Shown: in pieces, positions 1 through 12,387 of the stretch
Layout of the letters: each line of letters opens with the position of its first letter
Numbering within the stretch: position 1 is the stretch's first letter
Source of the DNA: a virus
DNA: 26,936 nucleotides
Reading direction: 5' to 3' (one strand)
Virus record (IMG/VR): IMGVR_UViG_3300037961_002519
Coordinates: 1-26,936 of that record
Notes under the pieces: generated by a model
What the model was told of the DNA's origin: nothing
What the model saw: the letters and a program-made list of their open reading frames with translations, nothing else
Database searches by the model: none
Made by a program: the position numbers and the translations under genes

Positions 1-861
1 AGCGGTAGCGGTGTTTTGTACAGCACCTTGCTCAGCAACCTTATAGATGGTTCTGATGACTTCACGGTTGATTTCAGCGAGGATCTCAGTTGACAGAATG
101 TTTGCCAACTCAGCTTCTGCATTCAGACCGTGGATTGCCTTGAGGTCCTGAGCGAGTTCTAACGAATACTCAGCCTTCAGGGCGCGTGACTTTGCAGTAA
201 CGGTGACCTTCTCGATCGAGAAGTTCATCTGGTTGAAGGCATTGTCGCCAGTGCCATCAAGTGCTTCTGCAGAGTCGGTTCTCATGCCCTGACCGACATT
301 GTAGCCGAGGGATGATGCAGAACCAACAGGGTTCAGTGCAGCAGGGTTAGTGCCAGACTGTGAAGTAGTACCCATACCAGCGATGGTATCGCTCTGTCCA
401 GTCTCGTCGTTGGAAGCGTTGTCGCGACCGGAGAAGGAGGTATCTGCTTCGTTGTAGAATGCCTCATCGCCAGCGGTACGGCTAGTACCATAGCGGGAGC
501 GCATTGCGAAGATCAGTCCAGTAGGACCGTTCATTGGTTGAACGCCAGCCAGGTCATAAGCGACCAGGTTAGGCATGGAGCGTCTGATCAAGGAGATCAG
601 AACGGGGTCGAAACCAGCAACAGGACCTGTTGCGGTTGCGTCAGCGGAGAAACCAGGGGTAGCACCAGAACCAGTGTTCATGGTGGGTTGCTCCATGAGC
701 ATTCCGCCATTTTCGAATGCGGATTGCTCTCTGAGGAATTTCTCTTGGTTTTCGAGCAGGACTGCGGTTACTGCCTTACGATGGGAATCTTTGATTGGAT
801 CAAGACCCTCATAGTTGAGGAGAGGTGCCCACTTTTCCTGCAGATGCTCTGATTGGAACAT
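1..861 (-). CDS. gp23: Major capsid protein gp23, N-terminal part (3' end runs out of window)
   Basis: This is the T4-like major capsid protein that forms the hexamers of the head shell. The reading frame is open from ATG at 861 to base 1, giving 287 codons, so the C-terminal part is missing. It starts MFQSEHLQEKWAPLL, similar to the T4 gp23 start region (LLNKWKPLL). The blocks NLVAYDLAGVQPMNGPTG and SRALKAEYSLELAQDLKAIH match conserved gp23 segments, followed by ELANILSTEILAEINREV. A probable prohead protease site, Leu-Met-Glu at residues 55-57, would remove the N-terminal delta region, as cleavage after Glu65 does in T4. A weak ribosome site (AAAGG) lies about 10 bases before the ATG. The gene follows scaffold gene gp22 after a 54-base gap, as in T4. 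Identity is secure; the exact cleavage point is inferred. Confidence 0.97.
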   Translation of the reverse strand, partial: MFQSEHLQEKWAPLLNYEGLDPIKDSHRKAVTAVLLENQEKFLREQSAFENGGMLMEQPTMNTGSGATPGFSADATATGPVAGFDPVLISLIRRSMPNLVAYDLAGVQPMNGPTGLIFAMRSRYGTSRTAGDEAFYNEADTSFSGRDNASNDETGQSDTIAGMGTTSQSGTNPAALNPVGSASSLGYNVGQGMRTDSAEALDGTGDNAFNQMNFSIEKVTVTAKSRALKAEYSLELAQDLKAIHGLNAEAELANILSTEILAEINREVIRTIYKVAEQGAVQNTATA

Positions 862-2067: not shown

Positions 2068-2718
2068 TCAAATACTATTGAGAAAATCATTGAACAGATT
2101 CAGTTTCTGCTCATCTAATTTCTTTTGATCTACCAGTGTATTAATGGTCTTGTATGTTTTTTCTGCATACTTCTCACGAAGAATGCCTCCATCCCATACC
2201 CACTCTTTACCTTCCATGATTCCCTCAACAAATGCATCGGGAGCTGAAGGATCAGCGACGATATCTGCAGCAGTTGCTAACATGAAATCTTCGCCAACTA
2301 CATTGTATCCTTCTTTGGTTTGCTTTAAAGAACCAATACCGCGAGAAGAAACGCCGAGTTTTACACCCTCACCTAAAAGTGATTGTGCAATCTTACCCAT
2401 CGGAGTTGAAAGAACCTTTGCTTTTCCGATGAAGTTTGAACCGCTTTCCTTCAAAGATACAATCTTATGAGATACACGATCCAAATTGACGGTAGGACCT
2501 TCGGGGTGACCAAGTTCTCCAAGAGCTCTGCCTTGGGCAACATGATTCTCATTATATCTAGTCACTTCACGACGAAGAGTTTCCATGGGATACATTCTGC
2601 CATTTCTGTTACAGATGTTTCCTTGAAGGAAAACTCCTTCAATGTAAAGTGATTGCTTACCGTTGCGATTTTCAACGATAATTTCAACCTTTTCGATTTC
2701 TTCTCTAATGAGTTTCAT
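2068..2718 (-). CDS. gp21: Prohead maturation protease gp21
   Basis: This is the serine protease inside the prohead that cuts the scaffold, the gp23 N terminus and internal proteins before DNA packaging. It is 216 residues, against 212 in T4. The N-terminal block SLYIEGVFLQGNICNRNGRMYP matches T4 GLYIEGIFMQAEVVNRNKRLYP in part. RALGELGHPEGP (residues 64-75) carries the expected catalytic His71. KLGVSSRGIGSL (residues 120-131) carries the nucleophile serine (Ser124 or Ser125), equivalent to the T4 GVSSRGLGSL motif. DPSAPDAFV (156-164) is also shared. The start ATG overlaps the stop of the preceding gene as TAATG, which suggests coupled translation. It sits between the core proteins and gp22, as in T4. 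Confidence 0.96.
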   Translation of the reverse strand: MKLIREEIEKVEIIVENRNGKQSLYIEGVFLQGNICNRNGRMYPMETLRREVTRYNENHVAQGRALGELGHPEGPTVNLDRVSHKIVSLKESGSNFIGKAKVLSTPMGKIAQSLLGEGVKLGVSSRGIGSLKQTKEGYNVVGEDFMLATAADIVADPSAPDAFVEGIMEGKEWVWDGGILREKYAEKTYKTINTLVDQKKLDEQKLNLFNDFLNSI

Positions 2719-3278
2719 TATGCTTGACCCGTAATTTGAACTTGTTGAACATGGATTGATCCACCAGTTCCGCCTTGACTAAGAGCAGAAACTTTCAATG
2801 ATCTTCTTAAAGTTGCATCAGGAGCAGAGAATGATGTGGTAATTGCAGCGGTGTTAGTATCAACCGTGATACTCGTCTGGAAATTTCCATCAAAAGTTGA
2901 TGTGGTATTAACAGAAATAACCTTAGCGTGTTTAATCAATGCATCGTAATGTGCAAAATTTGCACCAGTTAAAGTAACACGATCACCCTCTACGAATGGC
3001 ATTTGAGTACCTTCGGGGCAAGTAATAATTGTCGTTGTTCCTGTTGTAACTCCAACAACTCTTTGAGAAGCTTTAGTTACAGCAAGAGTTGCTGCAGTGT
3101 TCGCAGGAATAAGATAGTCAGTTTTAGTAGCAATCGGTTCCGTCCCAATAGCAACATAGGCATCTTGATTCACAGCAACGATTCTAAAAACGTTACTCTG
3201 AACAGATATTTCTCCAGTTGTTGCTGCAGTTCCAGTGACTGCAATTGACGATGCCGCCCCAATAGGTCTATGTGCCAT
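2718..3278 (-). CDS. Beta-rich protein of unknown function between gp67 and gp21
   Basis: I do not recognise this 186-residue protein by function. It is rich in Thr, Val, Ala and Ile with short alternating stretches such as VFRIVAVNQDAYVAIGTEP and ITTSFSAPDATLRRSLKVSA, so it is probably all-beta. There is no signal peptide or membrane segment. It lies in the head block where T4 has gp68, a helical core protein, but nothing in it resembles gp68. Its head-gene neighbours suggest a virion or capsid-surface protein, for example a decoration or vertex component. This is inference. A GATAAATA late motif lies 26 bases upstream and AGGA precedes the ATG. The stop overlaps the gp21 start. Confidence 0.85.
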   Translation of the reverse strand: MAHRPIGAASSIAVTGTAATTGEISVQSNVFRIVAVNQDAYVAIGTEPIATKTDYLIPANTAATLAVTKASQRVVGVTTGTTTIITCPEGTQMPFVEGDRVTLTGANFAHYDALIKHAKVISVNTTSTFDGNFQTSITVDTNTAAITTSFSAPDATLRRSLKVSALSQGGTGGSIHVQQVQITGQA

Positions 3279-8180: not shown

Positions 8181-8393
8181 CTACCAATCTGGATATTGCC
8201 AGTGATCGGATGATTTTTTTACTCTCTTTTTGGTGCAGTCCTTACATTCATATGAATATGAGGAAGCAACCGCTCCACGATCTTTTCTTGTTCTATAGAA
8301 GTCATCAACTAAATTCTTGACTTCTCCACACACTCTACATTTTCTATCTTGAAGTAATAAATGACCTAACTTTAATTGACCATCTAAGTCCAT
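8181..8393 (-). CDS. Small zinc-binding protein after the terminase
   Basis: This basic protein of 70 residues carries two CxxC pairs: CRVC at residues 18-21 and CKDC at 50-53, about 28 residues apart. That is a zinc-ribbon layout. Between them lies LVDDFYRTRKDRG and after them KKRVKKSSDHWQYPDW. The Cys spacing resembles the zinc site of T4 endonuclease VII (gp49), but the protein is far too short to contain the rest of that enzyme, so I do not call it a nuclease. I chose the ATG at 8393 because it overlaps the gp17 stop as TAATG, the same joint used elsewhere here. An in-frame ATG at 8411 would add six residues. Its place between gp17 and gp18 suggests a DNA-binding helper in packaging or processing; this is inferred. 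Confidence 0.8.
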   Translation of the reverse strand: MDLDGQLKLGHLLLQDRKCRVCGEVKNLVDDFYRTRKDRGAVASSYSYECKDCTKKRVKKSSDHWQYPDW

Positions 8394-10042
8394 TATGATA
8401 GATAATCCCACATATAAGCTCTATCACCATACTCATCAGTAAACCATCTATCGCCATCATTATCAACAAAACTATCACTGTTTAAACCATCATCGATAAA
8501 TCCAAATGGTGACATGTCTTGTTCAATCTGATTCTTCTGTTCCTCATATAATCTTTTGCGAACGTCTTGATCAGTTAGTTCTTTGAAATAATCTTGTGCA
8601 ACCAACCATGCATAGATGACAAGACACATTGCTAAGTCATCATTACATCCATCTTCAGCCTCAAATGAATTATTCTTTTGAATGAACGTTGTTAGTTCAG
8701 AAATAATTTCGTAGTCATTAAATAATAACTTATCTTCCTCAATAATTGTTTTAAGATTAAGTGCTCCAACCTTCTTTACAGTCTTGGACATCTTGACACC
8801 AAGTTGAGTTTTCTTACCAGAAAAACCCTGACCTACAATTTGTCCCGCTCTACCTCTCATTGAACACATGAGAAGGTTTTGATATTCCAAATCATATTGG
8901 AGGATACTCGCTACCTGATCTCCAATATCATTTACTTCGCATAAAATAAACGCACTGTTATAACTCTTTGCTACTTCCCAAATTATATTGGGAAATAACA
9001 TGGGTTTAATCTCATTATTCCTATACTTAGCTACAATTCTGTGAGGAAACTCTGTAATGTCTACGACCACGAACGCTGAATAATCTTCACTCACTCCACG
9101 AGCAACGTCTACTGTTATGACATAATCGTGATTTTCTTGAGATGATTCATATACATCCAACCCAGCATTTCTTTTAGATGGATTATCATAAATGAGAGTT
9201 CTGAGTTTACTGGGTGCAATCAGGGTATCAACTGATCCTAAGAACTCACATTCAAACTCAACCTTGAACTGTGCTTCTGACGTGTTCTTAATAGTTGTTT
9301 TTTTCCACTTCTCATCCCTACCTGGAACTTCTGACCAGTGAACATCTGTAGGGACATAATCATTCTTTTGTTTTTCTGCATCGTGCCACAGACGGTAGAA
9401 GTGGTTCATACCATGTGGCGTGGACACGATAATTACTTTGGTGTTTTTACCAGAAGTAATAGTAGGATAAACAGATGCAAAGAACGAGTCAGCGACGTGA
9501 TTTGGGACAAACGCGAACTCGTCGAGAAAGAGGATGTTGAACGACATACCTCGGACAGCACTTGCAGACGTAGAAGCTGCCAATATCTTACTGCCATTTT
9601 CTAATTCCAGAGATCCTTTGTTCCATGCTATGATACCTTGTTGCATCCATCGTGGCAAGTTTTCATAAGCAGTCTGTAACCTTCCAAGAAGTTCTCTTGC
9701 GGTTGCTGCTTTGTTTGCCAGAATGCCAATGTTTACGCTGTCATTGAATACAGCATAATGCAAAAGGTAAGATACGACTGTAGTGGATTTACCAGTTTGT
9801 CGTGGCATCTTACAGATATTAAATCTGTTATTGTGGAAGTTATTAATTAACTTCTCCTGGAAATGATATGGGTGGAACTGAGTCAAACCCTCATCAAGAG
9901 AAATAATCTTAACATAGTTATTTGCAAAGTAAACAGGATCTTCTTTGCATTTCATAAACTCAATAACTTGCTCTTGAGTAAACTCAATCGCAGTATTTGC
10001 TTTTTTTAAATTAGGATTGCCAAGATATACATTATCAGACAT
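8393..10042 (-). CDS. gp17: Terminase large subunit gp17 (packaging ATPase and nuclease)
   Basis: This is the motor and headful nuclease that pumps DNA through the portal. It is 549 residues against 610 in T4. The ATPase domain holds Walker A at residues 79-87 (MPRQTGKST, Lys85) and Walker B at about 170-175 (ILFLDE, Asp174 and catalytic Glu175). STPHGMNHFY (207-216) is the coupling motif region. The RNase H-like nuclease domain begins about residue 305: VITVDVARGVSEDYSAFVVV carries Asp312, FILCEVNDIGDQV carries Glu369, and CNDDLAMCLVIYAW carries the last acidic residues. QFKVEFECEFLGS is also typical of the family. A good ribosome site, AAGGAG, lies about 13 bases before the ATG, inside the end of the 52-residue gene upstream. 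Confidence 0.98.
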   Translation of the reverse strand: MSDNVYLGNPNLKKANTAIEFTQEQVIEFMKCKEDPVYFANNYVKIISLDEGLTQFHPYHFQEKLINNFHNNRFNICKMPRQTGKSTTVVSYLLHYAVFNDSVNIGILANKAATARELLGRLQTAYENLPRWMQQGIIAWNKGSLELENGSKILAASTSASAVRGMSFNILFLDEFAFVPNHVADSFFASVYPTITSGKNTKVIIVSTPHGMNHFYRLWHDAEKQKNDYVPTDVHWSEVPGRDEKWKKTTIKNTSEAQFKVEFECEFLGSVDTLIAPSKLRTLIYDNPSKRNAGLDVYESSQENHDYVITVDVARGVSEDYSAFVVVDITEFPHRIVAKYRNNEIKPMLFPNIIWEVAKSYNSAFILCEVNDIGDQVASILQYDLEYQNLLMCSMRGRAGQIVGQGFSGKKTQLGVKMSKTVKKVGALNLKTIIEEDKLLFNDYEIISELTTFIQKNNSFEAEDGCNDDLAMCLVIYAWLVAQDYFKELTDQDVRKRLYEEQKNQIEQDMSPFGFIDDGLNSDSFVDNDGDRWFTDEYGDRAYMWDYLS

Positions 10043-10047
10043 TCAGT

Positions 10048-10206
10048 TCAAACTCCTTTTAACATTGACCCTTTTTTTATTTGGGACGGTTTTAGAGAAT
10101 CTGCCGGTTTTTGGGGATTGTTTATAGCTTTATATCTAGCATTAATACTGGCATCTTTTTGAACAGGAGTTAAAGATGTTTCGTAAAATTGCTTGAAAGT
10201 TTTCAT
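10048..10206 (-). CDS. Small basic protein starting MKTFKQF; possible internal head protein
   Basis: This 52-residue gene fills the gap between the 675-residue gene and gp17. Its ATG is one base after the upstream stop (TGATATG) and its stop is 5 bases before the gp17 ATG, so it fits the operon exactly. It starts MKTFKQFYETS. T4 internal proteins start with the capsid targeting sequence MKTYQEFIAE, which places them in the prohead core and is removed by gp21. Here FYE at residues 7-9 could be the cleavage site. The rest, such as PQKPADSLKPSQIKKGSML, is basic (about 8 Lys/Arg against 2 Asp) and probably unstructured. An AATAAATA late motif lies 28 bases upstream. That it is a real gene is well supported by fit and start; the internal-protein role is inference. 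Confidence 0.72.
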   Translation of the reverse strand: MKTFKQFYETSLTPVQKDASINARYKAINNPQKPADSLKPSQIKKGSMLKGV

Positions 10207-10207
10207 A

Positions 10208-12235
10208 TCAGCAGTTCCAAGCTCTTAATGATTTATTTATTCTACTGTTGGGATCGTTAGCAGTTTTAGATGAAGTCAACTTTTTCTTCATACCCTTCAT
10301 TCGAGCACAAAATGATGCGCGACGGGGGTTTCCAACCTTCTTGCTTGGTGCCTTAAGGTCGCTTCCAGGATTCTCTCTTTCGTAAGATTTGCGTCCTTTT
10401 TCGTTGAGTCCACCTGATTTTTTCTTTCCTTCCTTTCTTGTCCATGCTGCTGATTCTGCATGGAGAAGTGGTTGTCCTGGGACATACTCGGATACCTGGT
10501 AACTTTGAACTTTAGCGCCAGGATAGACCTTTTCAATCTGATCTTGTACTTCAGATCTACTTGGTTTCTTTACCGTTGGGAAAAACATTTTAATGCCATA
10601 ATATTTTCCTCTCCATGAGAGGTGAACCATAATAATGTTTCCAGTTTTTGCTGGGATGCGAATGGCTTCATTAACTTCTTCGGGGCAGGCATCGGAACCA
10701 TGAACTGGGCAATCTTTACCCTTCTTGGTGTGAACGCATTCTGCCTCTTCTTTTTTGACACAGTTTGGATATCTCTTACCAAACATGGTCTTCATGCCTT
10801 TCTTCTCATATCCTTTCCAACACTTCTCATCAAGTTCAAATTCTTCTTTCTTAGTCTTAGACTTGTTTCCCCAGTTGGCAGCACCAACTTTACGGCATTT
10901 GACCAGTGCTCCTGACGCATATGCACTTGGCCAAACAGAGTAGCGTGATTTGACTTTGTGGTAGCAAGCATCTTTCTTGCCTTCCTCAATATCAATTTGA
11001 TCACCTACTTCAACATTATTTTCTGCGAACCATCCACGGTTTACTTCTAACGCGCACAGTACTTCTCCATCCGAAGTTACTGGGGATTCGTCAAATGGTT
11101 CTAGTTCTTTTATGCTTTCGATTATGCCATCCTCTCTGATGAAAGCAATATCCAGAGGGATTTTGGTTTCTTTCATGTAGAAAGATTGCTCTGCTACTTC
11201 ATCAAAGACGAACAGCATTCCACTGTTTTCTTCTAAACTTTCGCGGAACATGAGTCCCAAGTTGAAATCTCTAATGTTATTTGGAATTTCGATGTTGAGT
11301 GGCAGAGTTACGAACTCTGTGCTTTCCTTTACAGATTTCATTTTTTTCTTGGGTTTATCAGTTGGAACATATGTGGGTTTTGCCGCACCAGTCTTTTGTG
11401 GTTGACCAGGATCAGCAGCTCTCTTTCTTCTTTGAGCAGACTCTCTTTCGGATTTGCTCATGCTTGCTCTCTTTGCAGAGGACACGCATTTAGGTGTTGA
11501 TTTTTGACCAGGTTGACGAGCACAGGGTTTACCTGACACTACTTGAACCCAACCAGGTTTCCCACCTTTTGATCTTGACTTACCAAACCAATCGCGAAGA
11601 CCTTCTTCACTTACAGTGCCACCGTTTCCGTTGCCACCATTACCATTACCATTACCATTACCATTTCCGTTGCCATTACCATTCTTTTTGGTATCGTCAA
11701 CAGAATGACCATTTTCTTTACGAAGCATTCCTGCACGACCAACTACTTTGAATCCTTTGGGGATTGGCTTACACTTTTCATCGGTGTAACAGTAGTATTG
11801 TCCTTCAGGGCAACGACCATTCTTCTTCTCTTCATTTACATCACCAGAAGTATCTTTCTTATGAAGATTCTTATAGAGATGTTTATGAAGAGGTTTTGCT
11901 TTATTCATGATTTTATCTTTTTCAGAATAGTCTTGCGCTTCATTCATTTTTTTGGTCTTCTTCTTCATTGAGTTAATGAACTTTCTATAAACCGCTGCTT
12001 CTGAAGTCTTTCCCATTTCTCTTGCTCTCTGTTCCATAGCAACAGCTGCCTGGATTTTGTGAGCATGAGATCTTGATGAATTACGAATCTTAGAAACAGA
12101 TGCTTTAGCAGTCGCAACATCCTTAAACCCAAGTCCATGAATCGTGCCTTTTGGATTTTCATCCGTATAAAGGTCAGAGTGTTTCTTGGAGTTTGCTGGT
12201 TGACCAGGTTTTCTTGGGATACGAGGATTGCTCAT
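10208..12235 (-). CDS. Mosaic lysine-rich protein with DUF192 domain and several Cys-bearing modules
   Basis: This protein of 675 residues looks like a chain of small basic modules. Residues 18-99 are a helical unit (HGLGFKDVATAKASVSKI). 139-166 hold CPEGQYYCYTDEKCKPIPKG. 185-206 are Asn-Gly repeats. 211-292 hold GLRDWFGKS, GWVQVVSGKPCAR and PKCVSSAKRASMSKSER. 306-419 are a DUF192 domain (GLMFRESL, GMLFVFDE, IPLDIAFI, ALEVNRGWF). 421-457 hold CYHKVKSRYSVWPSAYASGA. 468-493 hold CWKGYEKKGMK and RYPNC. 499-517 are a Cys/His knuckle. 525-592 are a small alpha/beta unit. 605-675 hold GGLNEKGRKSYERENPGSDL and end NKSLRAWNC. The function is unknown. No enzyme site is evident. Its strong basic charge and its place between the terminase genes suggest a DNA-associated virion protein. 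Its ATG overlaps the upstream stop as ATGA. Confidence 0.9.
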   Translation of the reverse strand: MSNPRIPRKPGQPANSKKHSDLYTDENPKGTIHGLGFKDVATAKASVSKIRNSSRSHAHKIQAAVAMEQRAREMGKTSEAAVYRKFINSMKKKTKKMNEAQDYSEKDKIMNKAKPLHKHLYKNLHKKDTSGDVNEEKKNGRCPEGQYYCYTDEKCKPIPKGFKVVGRAGMLRKENGHSVDDTKKNGNGNGNGNGNGNGNGGNGNGGTVSEEGLRDWFGKSRSKGGKPGWVQVVSGKPCARQPGQKSTPKCVSSAKRASMSKSERESAQRRKRAADPGQPQKTGAAKPTYVPTDKPKKKMKSVKESTEFVTLPLNIEIPNNIRDFNLGLMFRESLEENSGMLFVFDEVAEQSFYMKETKIPLDIAFIREDGIIESIKELEPFDESPVTSDGEVLCALEVNRGWFAENNVEVGDQIDIEEGKKDACYHKVKSRYSVWPSAYASGALVKCRKVGAANWGNKSKTKKEEFELDEKCWKGYEKKGMKTMFGKRYPNCVKKEEAECVHTKKGKDCPVHGSDACPEEVNEAIRIPAKTGNIIMVHLSWRGKYYGIKMFFPTVKKPSRSEVQDQIEKVYPGAKVQSYQVSEYVPGQPLLHAESAAWTRKEGKKKSGGLNEKGRKSYERENPGSDLKAPSKKVGNPRRASFCARMKGMKKKLTSSKTANDPNSRINKSLRAWNC
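10234..10241 (-). promoter_or_regulatory. Late promoter motif AATAAATA before the 52-residue gene and gp17
   Basis: AATAAATA on the minus strand, 28 bases before the ATG of the 52-residue gene. It lies within the last codons of the 675-residue gene (AGA ATA AAT AAA). Its spacing matches that of gp20 and gp67. It would give the large terminase and its small upstream neighbour their own late transcript. Confidence 0.55.
11618..11683 (-). repeat. Hexanucleotide tract encoding Asn-Gly repeats
   Basis: On the minus strand a GGTAAT/GGCAAC-type hexamer repeats, encoding eight Asn-Gly pairs then G, two more pairs and G (residues 185-206 of the 675-residue protein). The central copies are nearly identical (AATGGT), a typical slippage-prone tandem repeat. 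At protein level it is a flexible linker between modules. Confidence 0.9.
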
Positions 12236-12387
12236 TCAACTGGTTTAGATTTAGTTTGACCACCTGCTGCTCTTTTTTTACGTCCAGCACAGTGTGCTTT
12301 CTGAGAGAATCCTTTCGGATTTGAACAGTCAATACTCTTTTTATATTTATTAGACCAAGACTCTTGAAACTGTTTGTATGTTTTCAT
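12232..12387 (-). CDS. Small basic protein starting MKTYKQF with a paired-Cys module; possible internal head protein
   Basis: This 51-residue gene fits exactly between two neighbours: its ATG overlaps the stop of the 656-residue gene (ATGA), and its own stop overlaps the ATG of the 675-residue gene (ATGA). It starts MKTYKQFQESW, sharing MKTYxxF with the T4 capsid targeting sequence MKTYQEFIAE and MKTxKQF with the 52-residue gene before gp17. FQE at residues 7-9 could be cut by gp21. The remainder holds DCSNPKGFSQKAHCAGRKKR (residues 20-39), a compact Cys-x11-Cys basic unit, followed by AAGGQTKSKPVE. It carries roughly 11 Lys/Arg against 2 acidic residues after the proposed cut. The module style matches the adjacent mosaic protein. 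Coding reality is well supported by the two overlaps; function is inferred. Confidence 0.78.
   Translation of the reverse strand: MKTYKQFQESWSNKYKKSIDCSNPKGFSQKAHCAGRKKRAAGGQTKSKPVE

Follow-up and report, generated by a model that had tools for sequence, protein, structure and literature searches.

Between the gene for the large terminase subunit and a long mosaic gene of a T4-like cyanophage lies a reading frame of 52 codons, which raises the question of what so small and basic a protein does in a cluster of head genes. The stretch of DNA analysed here (the window) is a whole IMG/VR record of 26,936 bases from a phage close to SynMITS9220M01, S-SM2 and Bellamy, and wider comparison of the N-terminal tag of this protein was therefore made in relatives. 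We propose, with a probability of roughly 0.78, that the gene encodes a T4-type capsid targeting sequence (CTS) on a 43-residue basic internal head peptide, which would be cut after Glu9. What the sequences show directly is the tag itself, its spread, its Glu pattern, the late-gene setting, and that both gp21 and the gp23 processing site are conserved. Taken together, the sequence comparisons make an assignment to the T4 CTS/internal-protein kind appear well supported.

Features of the tagged gene, its neighbours and the presumed processing machinery (window coordinates)
Feature	Position	Strand	Basis or remark
52-aa tagged basic protein (main finding)	10048..10206	-	ORF and sequence; relative S-SCSM2R_206, 47%; mature pI 10.2
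Tag at the N terminus, MKTFKQFYE; propeptide and cut after Glu9 both predicted	10180..10206	-	
43-residue basic body, first residue Thr10, motif ARYKxxxNPxxP	10051..10179	-	
ATAAATA late-promoter-like motif, end 27 nt upstream of the 52-aa ATG	10234..10240	-	
gp17 (large terminase subunit), directly downstream of the 52-aa ORF	8393..10042	-	
Mosaic gene, 675 aa, DUF192 + DUF6321, phrog_727, T4-GC119-like	10208..12235	-	
51-aa gene, tag MKTYKQFQE, widespread family	12232..12387	-	
gp21 prohead protease, presumed cutting enzyme	2068..2718	-	Peptidase_S77 1.1e-36; T4 gp21 5jbl 3.5e-25
Predicted gp23 processing site Leu-Met-Glu57-/-Gln	691..699	-	By-eye alignment, T4 and nine other cyanophages

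A small gene in a variable slot

The late genes of the window lie on the minus strand in the order gp23, gp22, gp21, a DUF7243 gene, a gp67-like gene, gp20, gp19 and gp18, followed by a small endonuclease VII-like gene, gp17, the 52-aa ORF, the mosaic gene and the 51-aa gene. Here gp18, gp19, gp20 and the endonuclease VII-like gene are named from relatives, and the gp67-like gene is so called on our assumption from its place and size. The DUF7243 gene (2718-3278) separates the gp67-like gene from gp21; S-SM2 carries a smaller gene, SSM2_116, at this position. The 52 codons run from an ATG start to a TGA stop, begin 1 nt past the mosaic stop and end 5 nt short of gp17, so the frame was found exactly in the gap that a preliminary description of this DNA had it fill.

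This gap behaves as a slot whose content varies between phages. Across 62 distinct loci, counting the window as L001, the interval between the mosaic 3' end and gp17 is empty in 33, starts with a tagged gene in 23 and holds another gene in 6. A tagged gene thus comes first in 23 of the 29 occupied slots, a proportion partly biased since several loci were fetched by the tag itself. The 51-aa gene was the query for loci L005-L084, among which a hand count gives 11 tagged, 3 with another gene and 23 empty. At least six kinds of tagged body occur in the slot: that of the 52-aa protein of the window, a family of ~105 aa, and those of L213, L217/L302, L194/L260 and L253. A tag start follows the end of the DUF6321 gene (RINKxLRxWNC, stop) within 20 nt in 13 of 40 ends, again among fetched loci with their tag-search bias. 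Judged from these sequences, the mosaic 3' end is one place where tagged genes are swapped.

Most relatives lack a gene in the slot (33 of the 62 loci are empty), as would be expected if the 52-aa ORF were no more than a chance frame in the space separating gp17 from the mosaic gene. We consider this scarcely credible, however, because S-SCSM2R encodes a 47% identical protein with the same tag at another place, because the match between the N-termini of the 52-aa and 51-aa proteins beats all 2000 shuffles (see below), and because the promoter motif ahead of the ORF is spaced as for gp18-gp20. On sequence grounds the ORF is a real gene, a conclusion that rests on this S-SCSM2R relative (S-SCSM2R_206), a protein of 45 aa with a different neighbour gene. 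The sole close copy in IMG/VR (L004) differs at 2 of 667 nt, too little divergence for demonstrating constraint.

The body motif is common to S-SCSM2R_206 and recurs weakly at the C terminus of PSSM2_115, a tagged P-SSM2 protein with a short stretch around NNPxxP that resembles the 52-aa body (E 0.003). A Pfam search with the body gave no match, and the 'head protein' families phrog_20538 and phrog_12582 match residues 9-28 weakly and not significantly (E 0.05 and 0.17). The 52-aa protein found one candidate relative and a poor Vibrio match in a tblastn search against phages, and nothing further than L004 in an alignment scan of IMG/VR; a two-row profile, made hastily, detected no additional significant relative of the body among 36,362 ORFs. 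The protein is rare: apart from a single near-identical contig, it has one or two distant relatives.

A late-promoter-like motif

A late promoter motif had been described upstream of the gene, and ATAAATA is present there, in a form that fits a T4-type late promoter. The window holds 12 copies, all on the coding strand (5.7 expected over both strands), and 10 of these end 19-42 nt ahead of a start, including those of gp18, gp19, gp20, gp22 and the gp67-like gene. The copy ahead of the 52-aa gene overlaps conserved Arg-Ile-Asn-Lys codons of the mosaic gene. Most relatives have ATC or ATT at that Ile, so the exact ATAAATA is missing there. Where this Ile is encoded by ATA, which gives the exact motif (the window and its copy L001, L260 and L289 among 40 ends), a tag start follows in all cases, which is suggestive only of a tie between motif and tagged gene. 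The shorter ATAAAT falls within the Arg-Ile-Asn-Lys codons in 18 of the 40 gene ends, with or without a tagged gene after it. The motif as a mere by-product of these codons was considered and rejected, strand bias and spacing favouring a real promoter.

Two tags in one window

The tags of the 52-aa protein (MKTFKQFYE) and the 51-aa protein (MKTYKQFQE) share 7 of 9 residues. After the initial Met, 6 of 8 residues are identical between these two small genes in a comparison of all 231 pairs of the 22 window genes; when the N-termini of the 22 genes were shuffled 2000 times, the best pair reached 5 and never 6. The first nine residues are hence a near repeat, as had been claimed from the sequence. 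The remainders are unrelated, again in line with that account: the tags agree at 20 of 27 nt and the bodies at 39 of 129, aligned ungapped. Four of the 7 nucleotide differences between the two tags are synonymous, so the peptide is what is kept.

Spread of the tag

The same start recurs widely. IMG/VR holds at least 120 stretches for MKTFKQF and at least 120 for MKSFKQF; MKFTKQF, a control with the same codons as MKTFKQF in another order, yields 11 in all, just 4 frames of which reach 30 aa. Requiring an upstream stop within 30 codons and a frame of at least 30 aa, we kept 159 of 167 tagged sites read and dropped 8. The 159 ORFs form 64 body clusters at E 1e-3, a cautious figure because some clusters merge unlike bodies, and 13 Pfam families are matched among the 64 cluster representatives. 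Mapped examples are an S-AdoMet lyase (L205), ART-PolyVal (L380), a phage lysozyme (L384) and an HK97-type capsid protein (L229). Some matches, such as L210 and L249, look like chance. One tag is therefore found on unrelated mature bodies, both in the window (51-aa and 52-aa genes) and over the 64 clusters, and by sequence it is real and mobile. The movable targeting tag of the preliminary description gains support from this diversity of bodies, from the aromatic residues 4 and 7 and from a Glu pattern that fits a protease.

Several of these loci merit mention in their own right. The MKTFKQF-tagged S-adenosylmethionine lyase (L205, 1921-2421; Pfam 5.9e-16) is possibly a head-delivered anti-restriction enzyme. 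Four tagged genes stand in a row on a single contig (L237, 6505-9422), and three on another, one of them ADP-ribosyltransferase-like (L380, 4066-5406). The HK97-type major capsid protein starting MKTFKQFLES (L229, 4567-5838) lies outside the T4 type and counts against reading the tag as a mark of head cargo.

Glu pattern and presumed cleavage

In T4, according to a review, residues 4 and 7 of the CTS serve targeting and residues 8 and 10 processing, and gp21 cleaves after L/I-x-E (PMC9026906). The 52-aa tag has the aromatic residues Phe4 and Phe7, as the T4 frames discussed below have Tyr/Phe4 and Phe7, and ends in F7-Y8-E9, as against T4's stated L/I-x-E.

The tag search fixed residues 1-7 only, so residues 8-10, which lay outside the pattern, provide an independent view of processing. 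Glu9 and/or Glu10 occurs in 56 of the 64 cluster representatives and neither in 8, compared with 1-6 of 64 for Glu at any single position from 11 to 25. A protease reading the hydrophobic residue two before Glu predicts Phe7 with Glu9 and a hydrophobic residue 8 with Glu10. At residue 8, 25 of 28 Glu10-only tags carry I, L, V, M or F, compared with 4 of 20 Glu9-only tags (Fisher 2e-6). This pattern fits what a T4 gp21-type rule would leave, and the Glu9 class over the 64 clusters suggests that F-x-E may be used where Glu stands at position 9.

The shared start might instead be a translation or stability leader, or the product of a recombination hot spot that copies 5' gene ends, which would suit its place at the extreme 5' end and in the swap slot. 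Neither expression nor DNA copying, however, explains why the choice between Glu9 and Glu10 depends on residue 8, and the two window tags differ mostly synonymously, with the peptide kept; we regard this explanation as improbable and retain the targeting tag.

The preliminary description made its reading depend on whether gp21 of this phage cuts F-x-E sites. The window encodes a gp21 of the S77 type, and the [LI]xE of the gp23 processing site is kept in 10 of 10 cyanophage gp23 proteins (the window and nine others) and in T4, aligned by eye; the Glu9 class suggests that F-x-E itself may be cut as well. In a count confined to the longer contigs, 26 tagged ones measured 40 kb or more and 13 of these encode Peptidase_S77; it is encoded by 4 of 4 above 120 kb and by 0 of 7 control contigs.

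Tagged proteins in T4 and cyanophages

A loose DNA pattern finds four places in the T4 genome, gp61.1 and three frames that start MKTFKEF (95 aa) or MKTYQEFIAE (100 aa and 193 aa). From their lengths and starts, we take these three frames to be IPI, IPII and IPIII. They share with the 52-aa protein the tag MK[TS][FY]xxF with aromatic residues 4 and 7 and often Glu at 9/10, as well as short, basic, mutually unrelated bodies in a genome that has a gp21-type protease. They differ in that no body similarity to the 52-aa protein was detected, that Glu often stands at 9 (F-x-E) and not at 10, and that the 52-aa gene lies in the head cluster beside gp17, whereas the T4 frames, at 65-74 kb, are far from T4 gp23 at 105 kb.

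A link to virions is provided by T4-GC190, a cytidylyltransferase-like protein reported among the S-SM1 virion proteins in a proteomic study (PMC3037559). Its S-SM1 frame can start MKKFSAFLNEA, and similar starts, such as MKSFFQFLSEA, occur in its homologues from S-SM2, Bellamy, SynMITS9220M01, P-SSM2, S-SCSM2R and Syn9; the homologues of P-HM1 and S-PM2 show no clear tag. The start is thus of the same type as in the 52-aa protein, but T4-GC190 is ~400 aa long, enzyme-like and conserved, whereas the 52-aa protein is small and rare. The strict tag pattern, in a scan that left out P-HM1, has no match in S-PM2, Syn9 and S-SM1, and Syn9 and S-SM1 have the looser MKKFSAFL form. Together with the tag comparison, this virion-borne family agrees with the idea, put forward from the window alone, of an internal-protein set like that of T4, in which the 52-aa protein would be packaged likewise.

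Whether such starts are equally common in cytoplasmic early genes, which would refute the targeting function, was addressed in annotated S-SM2. Of its two tagged genes, one is a late gene next to gp16/gp17 and the other T4-GC190, the protein detected in virions. On the other side, three tagged hypothetical genes of P-SSM2 (L428, 7544-17155) lie around gp61, nrdA and nrdB; T4 gp61.1 likewise adjoins gp61.

A proposed route into the head

From these observations we infer the following path. Phe4 and Phe7 of MKTFKQFYE would bind a gp22-type scaffold core, so that the protein is built into the prohead, and gp21 would cleave Phe-Tyr-Glu-/-Thr after Glu9. The 43-residue peptide, small and strongly basic, would stay in the head with the DNA and would probably be ejected together with it. 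Its most likely task is binding of DNA or of a host target. The tag would act as a module that can precede many unrelated bodies among marine T4-like phages.

Alternatively, the tagged protein may be a transient component of the scaffold core, as T4 gp67/gp68 are, targeted and cut but removed at maturation. Its very small size, basic character and place beside head genes would suit such a role, and most core fragments are described as leaving the head (PMC9026906). The only Glu of the 52-aa protein, however, is at position 9, leaving none in the body, so that gp21 could not degrade it, and enzyme-like tagged relatives (ART, S-AdoMet lyase, lysozyme) suggest kept cargo. Transient use is therefore unlikely, if less so than the other alternatives, and we prefer an internal peptide that stays in the head.

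Copies of the capsid arm and a wider view

Some tagged proteins carry a further element. In T4 gp61.1 (L085, 18966-19130), a CTS-like start is followed by a match to the gp23 arm and a Lys-rich tail. The match to the start of mature gp23 spans 26 residues ungapped and is almost in register with gp23 after the cut, and 0 of 5000 shuffles reached its score. In S-SM2, the tag of SSM2_108 (L087, 41376-41804) precedes a copy of the mature arm of this phage's own gp23, and the body of the 51-aa protein is fused at the C terminus. At a shuffle fraction of at most 0.002, a gp23-arm match is present in 7 of 166 tagged proteins (5 of 71 groups), and none was found in the 52-aa and 51-aa proteins. The 52-aa protein thus resembles the gp61.1 family as a small CTS-tagged protein (MKTFKEFIKE in gp61.1, which has a basic tail) and differs from it in that its body lacks the copy of the gp23 N-terminal arm with which mature gp61.1 starts.

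These data allow a tentative generalisation, for which we claim somewhat less than even odds. Marine T4-like phages may share one short capsid tag with two registers, either F-x-E at 9 or [ILVMF]-x-E at 10, that forms an open loading dock for a large, fast-changing set of head cargo; anti-restriction enzymes, ADP-ribosyltransferases and wall hydrolases would be among it. In some of these proteins, in T4 (gp61.1) as well as in cyanophages, processing would lay bare a copy of the mature N-terminal arm of the phage's own capsid protein, by which small basic proteins would be anchored to the inside of the capsid wall. The 52-aa gene would be one interchangeable cargo.

The breadth of the tag is more interesting than the 52-aa gene itself. 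A general loading role of the CTS in T4-like phages has been suggested (PMC9026906), and the present scans extend the argument from sequence to cyanophages and to further IMG/VR phages, with cargo of many types. Literature searches did not find the tag heptapeptides or, judged by titles, a survey of the tag in marine phages; a search on capsid targeting in cyanophages returned only that T4 review. With a signature of nine residues and an independent check on cleavage, head cargo can be predicted from sequence alone and listed by search, which bears on what T4-like marine phages carry in their heads and may inject into hosts. In the proteomic study, 18 hypothetical virion proteins are in need of assignment (PMC3037559). 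As a query, gp61.1 matches 1437 phage records, some possibly via gp23 itself, and a few of these matches are annotated 'major capsid domain-containing protein'.
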